A DNA stretch of 64,000 nt from NCBI RefSeq assembly GCF_017168235.1, contig NZ_JABFAO010000002.1, forward strand, positions 1 to 64,000, given 5' to 3'. Under the pieces are notes generated by a model. That model ran no database searches, was not told the DNA's origin, and worked only from the letters and a program-made list of their open reading frames with translations. The first letter of the stretch is position 1. Every line of letters starts with the position of its first letter. Position numbers and translations under genes: made by a program. This document shows positions 50,601 through 56,390 of the stretch, in pieces. The stretch comes from Rhodococcus sp. KRD197. Its GTDB lineage: Bacteria > Actinomycetota > Actinomycetes > Mycobacteriales > Mycobacteriaceae.

Positions 50601-50657
50601 GTGACCACCCTTGACCTTGTCAACACTGACCTCGTCGCTACCGGTTTCGCCGAATGA
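50601..50657 (+). CDS. Possible 18-residue peptide translationally coupled to the ANTAR gene
   Basis: GTG at 50601 to TGA at 50655-50657 encodes MTTLDLVNTDLVATGFAE. A GGGAG lies about 8 bases before the GTG, while the next gene has no ribosome-binding site of its own. The stop overlaps its ATG (ATGA), so ribosomes would pass from one to the other. It may be a coupling leader rather than a functional peptide. The rest of the 179 bp gap (50475-50653) shows nothing else clear. Confidence 0.45.
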   Translation: MTTLDLVNTDLVATGFAE

Positions 50658-51382
50658 CGGAGTCATTCGAAGTTCAGCGCCTGGTGGGATCCGTGCACGC
50701 AGTTTCGGACGACACCGAGTCGGAGATGCACCGTCTGGACTACCTCGTCGACCGACTTGTTGCCTCGGCCGCGCCTGCGGTGACGTTCACTTCTCTTGCC
50801 GAGGCATGTGTGCCGCTGCTCGGACCGCGGTGCATCGTCGATCTCGTCGAAGATTCAGGGGTCGCGTACAGCATCGAGCGCCCGCGCGGCTCGATGAGTA
50901 AATTGCCCGGTGAGCGCGGCGGGGCGGACCGGTGCACGGTGAGCGCCGCGGCGACGATCCCTTCTTCGACCCTCGCAGCCGCAGGTGGCTCCGGCTACTA
51001 CGCGCAGGTGAGCAGTTTCTGCCCGGTGGATCGAACTCCGACGGAGGAGCGAGAGTACCTCCTGCAACACCTCGTCGATTCCGCCGTCGAGTTGGTACGC
51101 CGTGAACGCATCCAAGCAGCTCTCGACGCCGAGCACGCAGTGTCCGCGCAATTGCGTCAGGCCCTCCAGGGCAGCCGCGACATCGGGATGGCCATCGGGA
51201 TCACGATGAATGCGTCACACCTCACCAGCGATCAGGCCTTCGAGGTGTTGTCGAGGGCCAGCCAGGACACCAATCGCAAACTCCGCGACATCGCGACCGA
51301 ACTCGTGCGCACCGGGGTGCTGCCCCACGTGGCCTCGGCCCCCGGCCTTGCCGTTCACGCGGCAGGCAGCGATTACCGATGA
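50654..51382 (+). CDS. ANTAR-domain RNA-binding regulator (first of four)
   Basis: 242 residues. The C-terminal three-helix ANTAR domain is at about 170-225 (QLRQALQGSRDIGMAIG, then SDQAFEVLSRASQDTNRKL). The N-terminal ~160 residues look like a GAF-like or degenerate sensor domain with several Cys (CVPLLGPRC, CTVSAA, FCPVD). ANTAR proteins bind dual-hairpin RNA and control antitermination. The start overlaps a small upstream ORF and the stop overlaps the next gene as ATGA. Confidence 0.85.
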   Translation: MTESFEVQRLVGSVHAVSDDTESEMHRLDYLVDRLVASAAPAVTFTSLAEACVPLLGPRCIVDLVEDSGVAYSIERPRGSMSKLPGERGGADRCTVSAAATIPSSTLAAAGGSGYYAQVSSFCPVDRTPTEEREYLLQHLVDSAVELVRRERIQAALDAEHAVSAQLRQALQGSRDIGMAIGITMNASHLTSDQAFEVLSRASQDTNRKLRDIATELVRTGVLPHVASAPGLAVHAAGSDYR

Positions 51383-52212
51383 GCCGACCACCGATGACCC
51401 GACCACCGATGACCGGACCACCGATGACCCGTAATGTCGACCCCGTGGGGGATGAGTTCGACGAAGTGGCGATTCGTGGGCTGGCCGACGAACAGGACGT
51501 CGATCTCCGCGAAAGCCTGGCCGCGCTCTCGCAGTTGTCCATGGGCCACGACGGTCTCGCGTCGATGCTCGTGCATGTTGCAGAGTTCGCAGTTCGGGCG
51601 ATACCCGGCGCCGATGGTGTCGGGGTCATGGTGGTGCACGACGACCGCCCCGACACTGTGGTTGCCAGCGCCGAGTTCGTGCGTTCGGTCGATGCGATCC
51701 AGTACGGCCTCGGCGAGGGTCCCTGCATCGAGGCCGCGGCGGACGCGAAGACGGTAGTCTCTGGTTCCTTGGGGGATGACCGGAGATGGCCTCGGTTCGG
51801 TGTGTCCGCAAGCAAGCTCGGTGTCCACAGCGTCCTGTCGCTACCGCTCCTGACTTCGAACGGTGTGATCGGAGCGCTCAACGTCTATGCCTACCAGGCA
51901 GAAACCTTCGATGAGCGCGCTGTGACGTTGGGTGAGTGGTACGCGCTCCCGGCCGCGATCTCGGTACAGAACGCCCAGAAACTCGATCATGCGCGACGCG
52001 TGACCGGGCAATTGGAAGCCGCGCTGACAAGCCGGGCGGTCATCGACCGCGCCGTCGGGATCGTGATGAGCCGCAGCGGATGCACCCCGGAAGAAGGCTT
52101 CGACGCGCTGCGCGCGATAAGCCAGAAGGAGAACCGGAAGTTGTCCGTGGTCGCGGTCCGCGTCATCGACGAGGCTGTGCGCCGCGCTCGTGCCCGGCGC
52201 ACCGAGCACTGA
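51379..52212 (+). CDS. GAF-ANTAR regulator (second of four)
   Basis: 277 residues. GAF domain about 45-190 (AIPGADGVGVMVVHDD, YGLGEGPCIEAAA, RRWPRFG, GVHSVLSLPLL), then ANTAR at about 215-270 (ALTSRAVIDRAVGIVM, then GCTPEEGFDALRAISQ). The N terminus encodes RPPMT repeats from near-identical 15 bp units (51385-51429), each with an in-frame ATG, so the true start may be any of four. Coupled to the previous gene by ATGA. Confidence 0.92.
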   Translation: MSRPPMTRPPMTGPPMTRNVDPVGDEFDEVAIRGLADEQDVDLRESLAALSQLSMGHDGLASMLVHVAEFAVRAIPGADGVGVMVVHDDRPDTVVASAEFVRSVDAIQYGLGEGPCIEAAADAKTVVSGSLGDDRRWPRFGVSASKLGVHSVLSLPLLTSNGVIGALNVYAYQAETFDERAVTLGEWYALPAAISVQNAQKLDHARRVTGQLEAALTSRAVIDRAVGIVMSRSGCTPEEGFDALRAISQKENRKLSVVAVRVIDEAVRRARARRTEH

Positions 52213-52242
52213 GGAACAACGCCACCGACGACCGAGATCCAG

Positions 52243-53001
52243 TCACACCTGGTTCTCACCCAGAACTCCGGCGACGCTCGCGAGAACGGTTCGAGCATCC
52301 AACTCCCGCTGTACGAGGTCATCCGTCACCTTGGACAGCGCCATCTCGTGATCGCGGGCGTATCGCCGCAACACCGCAAACGCTTGATCCATGTCCAGGT
52401 TGCCGACCTGAGCGAGGAGGCCCTTGGCCTGTTCGAGGCTGGCGCGGTTACGTAATGTCGAGCTGAGCTGACTACCGATCGCTCTCGCGTCGGGCATCGT
52501 CGGTCCATTGACGAGTGCGATGCTGGCGACGTGGGCGAGGGCCTGCGCGAGTTCGAGGTCTTCGTCATTGAGTGCACCGGACTGCGATCCGAACAATCCG
52601 AGAGTGCCCAGTGCCGTCTTCCGCAACCGCATGGGTACTGCATGCACGGAGGCGAACCCGGCTGACGTGGCGACCTCGACGAATTGCGGCCACCTCGTCC
52701 GATGCTCCTCGAGATCGGCGACGCTGATCGGCTGCCCGGTGTGGAAGCAGTCCAGGCAGGGGCCTTGCTCGCGCTGAAGTTGAAAGACCTCGAGCAATCG
52801 CGTTGTCTCCGAGGAGGCTGCGACGACATGCAGAACCTCGCGTTCGTCGGCCAACAGTAGACCTGCCGAGGCGATGTCGAGTAGCTGTGCACATTCGCTG
52901 GTCAACCCGCTCAGCAGTTCGATGACATCGAACTCACCGACCAGACTGTTGGCCAAGCGCACAAAGGCTTCGGTAACGCCGTGTTCGCGGTTGTTGTTCA
53001 T
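52243..53001 (-). CDS. GAF-ANTAR regulator (third of four)
   Basis: 252 residues. GAF domain about 15-165 (LLADEREVLHVVAASSE, REQGPCLDCFHTG, TRWPQFV, FASVHAVPMRLR, LGTLGLFG), ANTAR at about 190-240 (TLRNRASLEQAKGLLAQ, then LDMDQAFAVLRRYARDH). Start overlaps the stop of the next gene upstream (ATGA). It converges on the second ANTAR gene with 30 bp between the stops. Confidence 0.92.
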   Translation of the reverse strand: MNNNREHGVTEAFVRLANSLVGEFDVIELLSGLTSECAQLLDIASAGLLLADEREVLHVVAASSETTRLLEVFQLQREQGPCLDCFHTGQPISVADLEEHRTRWPQFVEVATSAGFASVHAVPMRLRKTALGTLGLFGSQSGALNDEDLELAQALAHVASIALVNGPTMPDARAIGSQLSSTLRNRASLEQAKGLLAQVGNLDMDQAFAVLRRYARDHEMALSKVTDDLVQRELDARTVLASVAGVLGENQV

Positions 53002-53786
53002 CCGATACTTCCCAAATTGTTCCCGGCGGCGGGGTGGTCGTCGGGGGTCAGTACGAGCCGACGTTCGACGATGTCCCATGCGACCTCGCTGGCGGTCTGC
53101 CCGGCAAGATATGCGTGCGCGCGCAGACGGGCGAGTGCCTCGACCGGACCGATATCGAGCTGTCCGATGATCATTCCCGTCGCTTGATACACCTCGACTC
53201 GTTCGAGGGAGGCAAGCTGCTCCCAACCGTCTCCGCCTTCGCTCGCGGCATTCCAGTCGAGATCCGAGGTCATCAGGTCCAGCAATGGCAGCGCAGCGAG
53301 TTCGGCTGCCCACATGCCCGCGTTCAATACAGTCTCCGACAGCGGCCCAGGGCTGGCGCGATAGAGATCGAGGACCCCGACGTGCACGGCCGCGATCGCG
53401 GTCGGAAGCGCGAAGACCGCCTGCACTCCCTCGTCGAGCACGGCAGGAGTGAATGCCGGCCACCGTCGCTCACCGGGATCGGCCAGGTCCGGCACCAGAA
53501 CAGGCGCACCGGTGGCGACCGCATCCAGGCATGGACCTTCACCGAACGTGAACTGAAACTCGTCCAAGCGCCTGCTGAATTCACCACTCGATCCGAACGT
53601 CCCGCGGGTTTCTCCATCGTGAATCACCGAGATCGCCGCACCATCGACGGGCAGCAGATCCACGCACGCCACACACAAGCGGTCGGCGGCGGATAGTCCT
53701 TGTCCGCCGCTCGCCATGGCCGACGCCAGATCCTCGCGCAACCGCGACTCCGCGGTCACTGCGGTGCCGCCGCGAAAGACAGGCAT
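52998..53786 (-). CDS. GAF-ANTAR regulator (fourth of four)
   Basis: 262 residues. GAF-like domain about 30-170 (VDLLPVDGAAISVIHDG, FTFGEGPCLDAVATG, RRWPAFT, VQAVFALPTA), ANTAR-like C terminus at about 190-245 (LERVEVYQATGMIIGQ, then GPVEALARLRAHAYLAG). First gene of the minus-strand ANTAR pair, coupled to the next by ATGA. FTFGEGPCLDA is shared among the four proteins, suggesting duplication. Confidence 0.9.
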   Translation of the reverse strand: MPVFRGGTAVTAESRLREDLASAMASGGQGLSAADRLCVACVDLLPVDGAAISVIHDGETRGTFGSSGEFSRRLDEFQFTFGEGPCLDAVATGAPVLVPDLADPGERRWPAFTPAVLDEGVQAVFALPTAIAAVHVGVLDLYRASPGPLSETVLNAGMWAAELAALPLLDLMTSDLDWNAASEGGDGWEQLASLERVEVYQATGMIIGQLDIGPVEALARLRAHAYLAGQTASEVAWDIVERRLVLTPDDHPAAGNNLGSIG

Positions 53787-53843
53787 ACGCTCATACCGAT
53801 CAACCCTAGCCGCCCGGATGCTTCGTTGGTGGGCAGCTACTGA

Positions 53844-55115
53844 TCAGCGCAGCATCTCCCGCAGGGTCGTCGAGGTGTATTCGCGTCGGAACGCCCCGCG
53901 CTGCTGCAGGATCGGCACGATGTGGTCGACGAACTCGGTGAGGCTCTCCGGATACAACGGAGGCATCAGATTGAATCCGTCGGCCGCGCTGCGGCGCACC
54001 CATTCCTCGATCTCGTCGGCGATCGACTCCGGGGTCCCGATCATCGTCGCGTGCCCGCCACCGGCGGCGAGGGTACCCAGCAGTTCGCGCACGGTCGGGG
54101 AGTCCTTGTCGATGATCCGCAGGATCGTCTCGTATCGACCGTGCGGACCGGTGAACTCCTCCAGCGGTGGCAACGGTGGCACCGGTGCGTCGAGTTCCCA
54201 CTCGCTGCAGTCCTGTTCGACGAACATCCCGAGCTGACGTAGCGACTGTGCCACCGGGAGCAGCGCATCCAACTCGGCCTTCTTGGCTCGGGCCTCGGCC
54301 ATAGTCGACCCGACGTAGGTCACCAGACCGGGCATGATGCCCACCGTCGCCGATTCCCGTCCGGCTCTGTCTATCCGTGCTTTGACATCCCTGTAGTAGC
54401 TCGCGCCGGACTCGATGTCGTACGCCACCGCGTAGATCGCCTCGGCGTATCGCGCTGCCAGATCTCGTCCCGGTCCCGACGCGCCTGCCTGAAACAGCAC
54501 CGGCCGCCCCTGCGGTGACCGCGGCACCGTCAATGGGCCGTCGACCCGAAAGTGCTTGCCCACGTGATCGATCGAGTGAACCGCATTGGGATCGGCGTAC
54601 ATGCCTTCTCGGTCGAGCACGAGCGCGCCCGCATCCCAGCTGTCCCACAGCGCGAGCGCGACGTCGACGAACTCCTCGGCCCGCGCGTATCGCTCCTCGC
54701 GAGAGGGGATCTCGTCGAATCCGTGATTGCGGGCCTCGGCGTCGAACATCGAGGTGACGACGTTCCATCCGGCTCGTCCGCCACTGATGTGATCGAGCGA
54801 GGCGAGCAACCGGGCGGCGTGAAACGGCGTGTAGAACGTGGTGGACACCGTGGTGACCAACCCGATGTGGGAGGTCGCTCGTGCCATGGCCGTCAGCGCC
54901 GTGATCGGTTCGAGGAACCAGGTTCCGGCACCGGCCGGATCGCGCACCGAGTGCCCGTCCGCGAAGAACACCGCATCGAACTTGCCTCGCTCGGCGGTAC
55001 GCGCGAGCTCGGAGTAGTAGCCGATGTCGCCGAGGTCCTCGACGCGGGAGCGCGGGTGGCGCCAGGCGGCACTGTGGTGTCCGCAGCCGAACAGAAAAGC
55101 GTTGAGATGCAGCAT
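53844..55115 (-). CDS. NtaA/SnaA/DszA-type FMN-dependent monooxygenase
   Basis: 423 residues, a long luciferase-like monooxygenase. Family segments: HLNAFLFGCGHHSAAWRHP, FDAVFFADG, TALTAMARATSHIGLVTTVSTTFYTPFHAARLLASLDHISGGRAGWNVVTS (split here across the barrel core), NHGFDEIPSREERYARA, and the FMN-loop RPVLFQAGASGPGRDLAAR. These enzymes need reduced FMN from a separate reductase and oxidise N- or S-containing compounds. It starts 3 bp after the SDR gene, and both lie behind a TPP riboswitch. So the substrate may be thiamine, a thiamine fragment or a breakdown product; inferred. Confidence 0.9.
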   Translation of the reverse strand: MLHLNAFLFGCGHHSAAWRHPRSRVEDLGDIGYYSELARTAERGKFDAVFFADGHSVRDPAGAGTWFLEPITALTAMARATSHIGLVTTVSTTFYTPFHAARLLASLDHISGGRAGWNVVTSMFDAEARNHGFDEIPSREERYARAEEFVDVALALWDSWDAGALVLDREGMYADPNAVHSIDHVGKHFRVDGPLTVPRSPQGRPVLFQAGASGPGRDLAARYAEAIYAVAYDIESGASYYRDVKARIDRAGRESATVGIMPGLVTYVGSTMAEARAKKAELDALLPVAQSLRQLGMFVEQDCSEWELDAPVPPLPPLEEFTGPHGRYETILRIIDKDSPTVRELLGTLAAGGGHATMIGTPESIADEIEEWVRRSAADGFNLMPPLYPESLTEFVDHIVPILQQRGAFRREYTSTTLREMLR

Positions 55116-55118
55116 GAT

Positions 55119-55874
55119 CTAGTCCTTGACCAAGCCGCCGTCGACGACGAGGTTCTGTCCGGTCACCGATCGCGACCAGGGTGAGGCGAAGAAGAGCAGG
55201 GCGTCGGCGAACTCCTCCGGCGTCACCACGCGTTGCAGCGGGGTCGACGCTGCGATGAGGTCGAATACAGCTTTCGGTGTCGCGGAGCTGGCGTCGGTGG
55301 TGCGCAGGAGGCCACCGGAAACCATGTTGACGGTGATGCCGTCGGCCCCGAGGTCGGCGGCGAGCGTACGAGTCAGCGACAGCAGCGCCGCCTTCGAGGC
55401 CGTGTAGTCGTGGTAGGGAACGACGGGGTTCTGGAAGAGGTTCGTGCCGACGTTGACGATGCGGCCGAATCCGATGGAGCGCATTCCGCCGAGGGCGCGC
55501 TGGGTGGTGGTGAGTGCGCCGCGGACCGCTCCCTGGAACTGGGCGTCGAACTCCTCCCAGGTGATGGTGTCAGCGGTGCTACGAGCGTCACCGTTGAAGG
55601 AGAAATCGGCGAGAGCGTTGTTGACGACCGTGGTGACGGGCTTTCCGAAGTGCTGCTGCGCTGCGGTGAACATCGTCTCGACCTGGTCGGCCTGCGTCAC
55701 GTCCGCCGCCACGGCGAGGCCGCCGATCTCTGCAGCGAGCCGTTCGGCGGACTGAACACTGCGACGGTAGTTGACCACGACATCGGCACCCTGGGCGGCG
55801 AATGCCCGTGCAATCGCGGACCCGAGTCCCCGCCCAGCGCCGGTAACCAGAACAGTCTGCTCGCTCAGTTTCAT
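55119..55874 (-). CDS. Short-chain dehydrogenase/reductase (FabG-like), first gene after TPP riboswitch
   Basis: 251 residues. VTGAGRGLGSAIA cofactor loop, DVTQADQ, VVNNALADF in place of NNAG, and the active-site Tyr-Lys in YTASKAALL; the usual Ser position lies in IVNVGTNLF, which is not a Ser, so the classical Ser may be replaced. The ATG at 55874 has GAGAGG 7 bases upstream; an ATG at 55880 is in frame. It precedes the flavin monooxygenase by 3 bp. Confidence 0.85.
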   Translation of the reverse strand: MKLSEQTVLVTGAGRGLGSAIARAFAAQGADVVVNYRRSVQSAERLAAEIGGLAVAADVTQADQVETMFTAAQQHFGKPVTTVVNNALADFSFNGDARSTADTITWEEFDAQFQGAVRGALTTTQRALGGMRSIGFGRIVNVGTNLFQNPVVPYHDYTASKAALLSLTRTLAADLGADGITVNMVSGGLLRTTDASSATPKAVFDLIAASTPLQRVVTPEEFADALLFFASPWSRSVTGQNLVVDGGLVKD

Positions 55875-55916
55875 ACACATGCCTCTCGCTCGTTGGCCGT
55901 CCAACGCGAAAGACAA

Positions 55917-55933
55917 TGCACCCCATGGGTGCA
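55917..55933 (-). terminator. Hairpin after the TPP aptamer (expression platform)
   Basis: TGCACCC/GGGTGCA arms around a 3-base loop, immediately after the aptamer's last base and 43 bp before the SDR ATG. On the minus strand it is followed by TTGTCTTTC, a weak T-run. It may terminate transcription, or control access to the ribosome-binding site, when TPP binds. Confidence 0.6.
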
Positions 55934-56014
55934 GACATCCCTACGCTGGTGTTGACCAGATCAGGTTCGACGGGTGTGTTCTCAGCCGCTTCATGAAAAG
56001 CGGCACCCCGTGTC
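55934..56014 (-). promoter_or_regulatory. TPP riboswitch (THI element)
   Basis: On the minus strand: GACA, then CGGGGTGCC, a variable P3 stem (GCCGCTTTTCATGAAGCGGC), then CTGAGA, ACACACCCG, GAACCTGATCTGG, the loop TCAA, CACCAGCGTAGGGA and TGTC. These are the conserved parts of the TPP aptamer, in order, with P1 formed by GACA/TGTC. P3 is short. It lies upstream of the SDR-monooxygenase operon. High thiamine pyrophosphate would switch the operon off. Confidence 0.95.
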
Positions 56015-56087
56015 AACGACGAGTGTACCTATCGGGCTCTGTACCTCTATCTAGCGCTAGCAGTAGAGATGGATATAGGCTCCTACG

Positions 56088-56390
56088 ATGCGCGAGCGAG
56101 AGTACGTCGAATACTGGTTGGACGAGAACGTCGTGCTCGTCCTCGACAACCGCATCGTCGAAATCTTCGACGCGACACAGCAGACCGTCTCGGGCCGACC
56201 CCGCTGGCACGTCGCGCACATCGGAGTCGACGCGAAGCCCCGTGGCGGCGGACTACGCGTCAAGATCGGTGCACGGTTGTCCGACGGCTCGATCTCGTAC
56301 CTCGGAGGTCAAGCGGTGTTCGACGTGCCGCAGGACAAGGTCCCGCACGTGCTGGCGTTCTTCGACCGCGCGAAGCAAGCCAGAGGCTGA
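56088..56390 (+). CDS. Small conserved protein, unknown function
   Basis: 100 residues, alpha/beta, starting MREREYVEYWLDENVVLVLD. No recognised motif; basic loops (KPRGGGLRVK) and a C-terminal helix (HVLAFFDRAKQ). Divergent from the TPP-riboswitch operon; the gap holds a CTAGCGCTAG palindrome at 56051-56060 and a TATAGG -10-like element before the ATG. It ends 24 bp from the convergent GH13 gene. Confidence 0.65.
   Translation: MREREYVEYWLDENVVLVLDNRIVEIFDATQQTVSGRPRWHVAHIGVDAKPRGGGLRVKIGARLSDGSISYLGGQAVFDVPQDKVPHVLAFFDRAKQARG

Follow-up and report, generated by a model that had tools for sequence, protein, structure and literature searches.

Salvage of the aminopyrimidine half of thiamine under the control of thiamine pyrophosphate (TPP) is known from the TenA/YlmB/ThiXYZ system, in which TenA and YlmB hydrolyse amines and amides; to our knowledge, few enzymes that salvage hydroxymethylpyrimidine (HMP) have been described. 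Two other chemistries are relevant here. The known monooxygenases NtaA, DmoA and DszA split C-N or C-S bonds in X-CH2-R substrates and leave aldehydes, while LuxE is an acid-activating enzyme and LuxC makes aldehydes by reducing acyl groups. We know of no TPP control for YtnJ/MoxC, nitrilotriacetate (NTA) monooxygenase, DmoA or DszA. In Rhodococcus sp. KRD197, however, a TPP riboswitch precedes a short-chain dehydrogenase/reductase (SDR) and a luciferase-like flavin monooxygenase of family TIGR03860, labelled LLM below. The three lie on the minus strand of the first 64,000 nucleotides of contig NZ_JABFAO010000002.1 (the window, meaning this whole stretch). They most likely form a salvage operon. 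That it recovers the pyrimidine half of thiamine by way of an HMP-type aldehyde has, in our estimate, about an even chance of being right, and we rank the wider claim of pyrimidine salvage higher. The features on which the argument turns are:

55921-56020, minus strand: TPP riboswitch aptamer (THI element), matching RF00059 over the full model length (positions 1-105)
55119-55874, minus strand: SDR of the NF006393/PRK08642 family by score, start placed by eye; likely an HMP-aldehyde-type reductase
53844-55115, minus strand: FMN-dependent monooxygenase of the NtaA/DmoA family (TIGR03860) by score; likely frees a pyrimidine aldehyde

No account of this SDR-LLM operon, or of the LuxE-LuxC operons described below, was found in the open-access literature, and the words "monooxygenase" and "dehydrogenase" do not occur in the accessible portions of the main texts of two papers on TPP regulons (PMC3766115, PMC2211319).

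The riboswitch and its two genes

A reading of the window made from its letters alone (the sequence-only reading) had placed a TPP aptamer at 55934-56014 on the minus strand. A covariance-model scan puts that segment inside an RF00059 match of 69.5 bits (cut-off 54.3; E 1.3e-11), the top score among three TPP elements in the whole genome. The listed SDR open reading frame spans 55119-55916, from an upstream TTG; the likely start by eye is the ATG at 55874, 7 nt past GAGAGG. The SDR scores 427.4 bits against NF006393/PRK08642 (cut-off 292). LLM begins 3 bases past its end on the same strand and scores 541.3 bits against TIGR03860 (cut-off 279.7) over residues 4-420, so the family name "NtaA/DszA-type" given by the sequence-only reading is correct. 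By sequence its nearest solved relatives are YtnJ/MoxC (304 bits), NTA monooxygenase (288) and DszA (276), with RutA distant at 35.

The altered Ser region suspected in the SDR is a conservative exchange. Thr, within the motif GTNLFQNPVVPYHDYTA, occupies the Ser place 13 residues ahead of the catalytic Tyr, as it does in most of the relatives printed alongside, some of which have Ser (L102, L162); the catalytic Tyr and Lys are retained in the alignment, and a lost active site is unlikely. Rodionov et al. are said to have named, in 2002, a THI-regulated SDR oarX, perhaps the window's SDR, and the TPP link of this gene may already be in print.

The claim that the riboswitch controls only these two genes fits the conserved unit but not all of the local arrangement, in which a GAF/ANTAR gene starts 57 nt past LLM on the same strand. 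Because no such gene was found behind the operon in any of 29 other loci of the genus, which extend about 1.5 kb past LLM, it was rejected as a third operon gene, and the conserved unit is SDR plus LLM.

Conservation within and beyond the genus

Among 37 genomes of the window's genus, 36 carry the SDR, and every copy stands behind a TPP element on the same strand, at a distance of -12 to 105 bases between the end of the TPP match and the start of the gene. Thirty-four of these elements score above the Rfam cut-off, and those of G004 and G025 reach 52.9 bits. The pairing of TPP element and SDR is not due to chance. An LLM orthologue (81-100% identity) is present in 30 of the 37 genomes, and a text pattern finds the TPP core in all 30 of these loci. 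Seven genomes are without LLM: six retain the TPP-SDR pair (G001, G002, G005, G012, G013 and G017) and G035 has no such SDR. LLM is absent from the DNA at the three of these six TPP-SDR-only loci that were inspected (L143, L146, L149).

The TPP link does not extend to the LLM family at large. A control set of 20 of the 29 listed LLM paralogues (45-53% identity), searched with the text pattern, yielded a TPP core at none of the 20 regions, and no covariance-listed TPP element lies near the paralogues checked. In an LLM tree of 90 rows, built by a quick method after removal of 24 of 30 near-identical genus rows and with long branches flagged, one branch with support 98 parts 23 paralogues from the SDR-linked LLMs.

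Outside the genus sample, the sequence-only reading had proposed a search for homologues behind TPP elements, and these were found in three phyla: cmscan places TPP before SDR-LLM on plasmids of Rhodococcus sp. DMU1, Pseudochrobactrum algeriensis and Mesobacillus foraminis (L004, L005 and L006; Actinomycetota, Alphaproteobacteria and Bacillota). GTDB genomes were then scanned with an SDR alignment and the best 80 of at least 573 relatives kept, a selection that favours relatives of the Pseudochrobactrum SDR. LLM adjoins the SDR in 62 of these 80 loci (a contig end cuts L046 and L062, and L101 is split), and TPP precedes the SDR in 56 (54 by pattern, L068 and L071 by cmscan); the L084 element falls below the cut-off at 49 bits. 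A symporter of the SSF family related to that of L043 (PF00474 in two examples) is found in 45 of the 80 loci, the copies of L069 and L084 being partial; neither the window nor any of the 30 genus loci has a homologue of the L043 symporter. Exiguobacterium L161, considered as an SDR-only TPP operon, proved by tblastn to have TPP, SDR and then an LLM split over two frames, and so is of the window's type. Record L041 (JAHREI010000003.1) bears the title Bacillus subtilis SK6B4. Its SDR shares 96% identity with the Pseudochrobactrum SDR and falls in one group with it, which makes a wrong title or a contaminated assembly probable.

Other settings of the SDR and the case for an aldehyde

Four TPP-controlled settings were found for the SDR family, of which TPP-SDR-LLM is setting (a). 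The examples of setting (c) were picked from 44 plasmid records, of which those named here and L159 were opened; the visible part of L159 shows no TPP element and no thiamine gene beside the SDR. Setting (b) has the order TPP-thiM-thiE-thiD-SDR, in Neorhizobium L158, Gemmobacter L160 and, by eye, Rhizobium L170; in L118 a tenA-like frame with one internal stop stands between the thi genes and the SDR. In setting (d) TPP precedes the SDR without LLM, in the six genus genomes above and in L055, L091, L094 and L107. Setting (c) is found on plasmids and places LuxE and LuxC ahead of the SDR, with TPP in seven of the seven records that have the upstream region in view (Priestia L168 ends before it) and Pfam matches to LuxE and LuxC in all seven setting-(c) records. 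The TPP-LuxE-LuxC-SDR operons span:

L162, 2140-5747
L164, 694-6830
L165, 2663-8789
L166, 2133-5771
L167, 3229-6774
L169, 176-5768
L171, 843-5774

Their transporters vary: Azospirillum L164 and L165 have an ABC transporter with a THI5-like binding protein, Lactiplantibacillus L171 a Xan_ur permease, Niallia L169 a permease of the same family and ThiW, and Pantoea L162, L166 and L167 no transporter between. The Niallia taxi record (L169) has tandem TPP aptamers, at 176-284 and 363-472, before its thiW-permease-LuxE-LuxC-SDR series. The LuxE-LuxC-SDR operon looks like a second operon for salvage of a thiamine precursor.

Given the functions of LuxE and LuxC, the simplest chain in setting (c) makes an aldehyde that an alcohol-forming SDR then reduces. 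Setting (a) may enter the same chain from the other side, since TIGR03860 enzymes release aldehydes. All nine setting-(c) SDR rows, representing eight genes, have [PA]YHDY ending in the catalytic Tyr, as do the other SDRs printed with them, which suggests a substrate common to both groups. The sequence-only reading had the operon work by oxidation and dehydrogenation. For the SDR, reduction of an aldehyde is more likely than dehydrogenation, because acid reductases of the LuxE/LuxC type stand ahead of it in the operons of setting (c).

Which half of thiamine

Genes for the two halves of thiamine are unequally distributed. thiC is found in none of the 37 genus genomes, by a search that was positive for 13 of 14 control genomes, and thiG in all 37, so the missing half is HMP; judged by gene content, the genus is without the pyrimidine (HMP) branch only. 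Across the order, thiC was found in 194 of 298 genomes, 52 of them from other genera of the same family; 84 order genomes without a thiC match are unlisted, so that this count does not extend to all relatives. The window's own genome has thiD, thiE, thiO and thiG, with thiE and thiO above family cut-offs. Of its two further TPP elements, one precedes thiO-thiS-thiG (thiS by eye); the other precedes a tenA-like gene, behind which genes for a THI5-like binding protein, an ATPase and, between them, a permease stand in a row. The tenA-like gene scores 117.7 bits against PF03070 and 114.5 against TIGR04306, below the stricter cut-off of 130. Of the co-occurrences that the sequence-only reading had proposed to look for, thiC is absent from the genus, a tenA-like gene is present in the genome itself, and thiM occurs in L158, L160 and L118.

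Among the 80 kept genomes, 25 are without thiC (fragments in L062, L093 and L109 being counted as present). All 25 belong to the 64 with TPP at the locus and none to the 16 without, of which 15 carry thiC in full and the remaining one carries a fragment of it (Fisher p 0.0017, in a comparison confounded by taxonomy). thiG was searched in 50 of the 80, namely the 25 thiC-less genomes and 25 others (including L093, with its thiC fragment). A full thiG is present in 19 of the 25 thiC-less genomes, the exceptions being L038, L039, L040, L041, L049 and L107, and in 25 of 25 others, so that none of the 24 sampled thiC-bearing genomes lacks it. Among the 80, L110 duplicates the assembly of G009 and L111 that of G034, with identical thiG contig and coordinates in each pair; L110 is titled Rhodococcus ruber IEGM 1391 and L111 Rhodococcus sp. 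G-MC3. An order-wide comparison of LLM with thiC was uninformative, as LLM is found in only 2 of 298 genomes at E 1e-165.

According to the accessible part of PMC11452348, marine microbes that depend on thiamine supply most commonly need HMP, and the asymmetry of thiC and thiG is in that light partly a base rate. For R. equi and its relative, the part of PMC11893733 available links a requirement for thiamine to the loss of thiC, and the available part of PMC9666465 makes no mention of Rhodococcus. The thiamine need of R. ruber ZM07, as given in the accessible parts of PMC10269752 and PMC7758286, was not carried over to these genomes, the R. ruber title of L110 being unreliable.

A proposed route to HMP

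From the riboswitch, gene order, conservation and gene content we infer the direction of control, the substrates and the aldehyde intermediate of the following route. When TPP runs short, the riboswitch would permit production of SDR and LLM. LLM, using FMNH2 and O2, would oxidise the 5-methylene carbon of a pyrimidine-CH2-X compound and free the pyrimidine 5-aldehyde; X could be a sulfonate, amine or thioether that results when sulfite, a thiaminase or another agent damages thiamine. The SDR would reduce the aldehyde to HMP with NAD(P)H, after which ThiD would phosphorylate HMP and ThiE couple it to thiazole made by the cell itself. An uncharacterised step of thiamine metabolism, as the sequence-only reading had suspected, is well supported by the TPP link in three phyla and by a genus without thiC. 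Of the options it left open, making, salvaging or degrading, salvage of the pyrimidine is favoured over the other two. An operon repressed by TPP would be expected to be expressed during TPP shortage, as salvage requires, and to be silent in the presence of ample thiamine, on which ground breakdown of thiamine as a nutrient was set aside.

Several observations weigh against this route. The setting-(c) SDRs are 39-44% identical to the Pseudochrobactrum SDR and fall into a group of their own (one change, support 68), and the two LuxE-LuxC SDRs that were scanned are barely above the family cut-off (294 and 300 against 292 bits). The thiM and ThiW genes of some operons point to thiazole. Six of the 36 TPP-SDR genomes in the genus, and 4 of the 80 kept loci (the TPP-SDR loci listed under setting (d)), have no LLM, so that this enzyme is not the SDR's sole source of substrate. 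The LLM frame is split in L161 (5806-6877) and Brevibacterium L101 (6810-8079), through decay or sequencing error, with the SDR open in both. LLM is present without TPP in L069 and L092, and in seven Achromobacter-like loci (L070, L074, L075, L076, L080, L082, L085) TPP faces only a divergent symporter. Fourteen of the 80 loci have the SDR with neither TPP nor LLM: L089, L114 and 12 close SDR relatives in Lysobacteraceae/Lysobacterales (L095, L097, L098, L100, L102, L103, L105, L109, L112, L113, L115, L116). Most of the 80 genomes possess thiC, and at least 5 of the 25 that do not are by title metagenome-assembled genomes (L039, L049, L061, L065, L094) and may be incomplete. The SDR may have another or a wider role, since SDR loci without TPP exist and their genomes carry thiC.

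Alternative explanations

Could the operon serve the thiazole half instead? The SDR, with LuxE-LuxC where present, would then reduce thiazole acetaldehyde or acetate to hydroxyethylthiazole, and LLM would handle damaged thiazole. thiM does share an operon with the SDR in L158, L160 and L118, the precursor transporter ThiW opens the Niallia operon L169, and DszA-type relatives act on sulfur rings. The genus, however, has thiG throughout and thiC nowhere, 19 sampled operon genomes are likewise thiC-less with thiG while the reverse is found in 0 of 24, and the SSF symporter and Xan_ur permease neighbours better fit a pyrimidine, so that thiazole salvage seems unlikely. Thiamine acetic acid is a known thiamine catabolite, and a TPP-controlled acid reductase with an alcohol-forming SDR would also fit a pathway that returns it, or whole thiamine otherwise oxidised (for example in the side chain, to aldehyde or acid), to thiamine. 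Such repair leaves LLM without a role, and the neighbours are the precursor genes thiM, thiE and thiD and precursor-type transporters; we hold it to be quite improbable.

A more radical proposal would make the operon a TPP-controlled replacement for ThiC, an O2-using synthesis of HMP that starts from some metabolite other than a fragment of thiamine. It would suit a genus with thiG and no thiC, and a genome that combines thiD and thiE with a TPP-SDR-LLM operon. Against it, most of the kept operon genomes outside the genus carry thiC, six thiC-less genus genomes hold the SDR without LLM, and the tenA-like gene and precursor-type ABC transporter of the window's genome fit uptake, which together make it very improbable indeed. 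General detoxification or nutrient breakdown, with incidental TPP control, draws on the size and breadth of the SDR and LLM families and on the 14 loci that have the SDR alone; against it stands a TPP link that recurs in three phyla and several gene orders and is missing at the 20 sampled paralogue regions, and we consider it quite improbable as well.

Control in the leader and the surrounding genes

Two further features lie between the aptamer and the SDR:

55917-55933, minus strand: hairpin TGCACCC-ATG-GGGTGCA with a T-rich tail, a terminator-like match and possible expression platform
55880-55915, minus strand: second hairpin, predicted by minimum-energy folds, that pairs the likely ribosome-binding site GAGAGG (55887-55882)

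The first is the sole terminator-like match in 53600-56300, where shuffled sequences average 0.8. A counterpart exists in only part of the genus, and a conserved terminator was rejected as the switch. By minimum-energy folding the whole leader is more stable than shuffles (z -3.43), with the ribosome-binding site paired in the predicted fold of the window's leader. Hardly any sequence separates the aptamer from the coding start in L143, L146 and L149. Control is likely to act at the level of translation.

A partner flavin reductase for LLM was sought among the five downstream neighbours scanned and none was found; they are NUDIX, ferritin-like, DctQ and lipid A acyltransferase genes and one without a match. 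Genes for GAF/ANTAR-like regulators cluster on both strands at 50654-53786 of the window (52998-53786 by family scan, the remainder by eye).

Comparison with known systems

If the proposed route is correct, it would add a new branch that reaches HMP through an aldehyde, made either by an oxygenase or by a LuxE/LuxC-type acid reductase, with one reductase family common to both. It would also explain the pyrimidine supply of a thiC-less genus and put right the naming of a widespread SDR family; so specific a prediction could be tested with a few compounds. The name at issue is that of PRK08642, "3-oxoacyl-ACP reductase". The window's SDR passes the cut-off of this family, but it sits with thi genes or with aldehyde makers, and no fatty-acid-synthesis gene is part of the conserved operon; the name is probably wrong for this branch.

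The likeness of LLM to NtaA, DmoA and DszA lies in a score well above the TIGR03860 cut-off. Unlike their paralogues, the SDR-linked LLMs have fixed residues of their own; at H131, for example, all 23 of 23 paralogues carry F, and M123, D125, D233 and W306 are likewise specific to the group. On the transport side, the TPP-linked SSF symporter ThiV is, in the accessible part of PMC11452348, the likely HMP transporter of SAR11; an SSF symporter with its own TPP element stands in 43 of the 80 kept loci and is likened to ThiV by family. As in the TenA/YlmB/ThiXYZ system, HMP would be recovered under TPP control from breakdown products of thiamine, but where TenA and YlmB hydrolyse their substrates, the operon in the window is proposed to employ a flavin enzyme that uses O2, together with a reductase.

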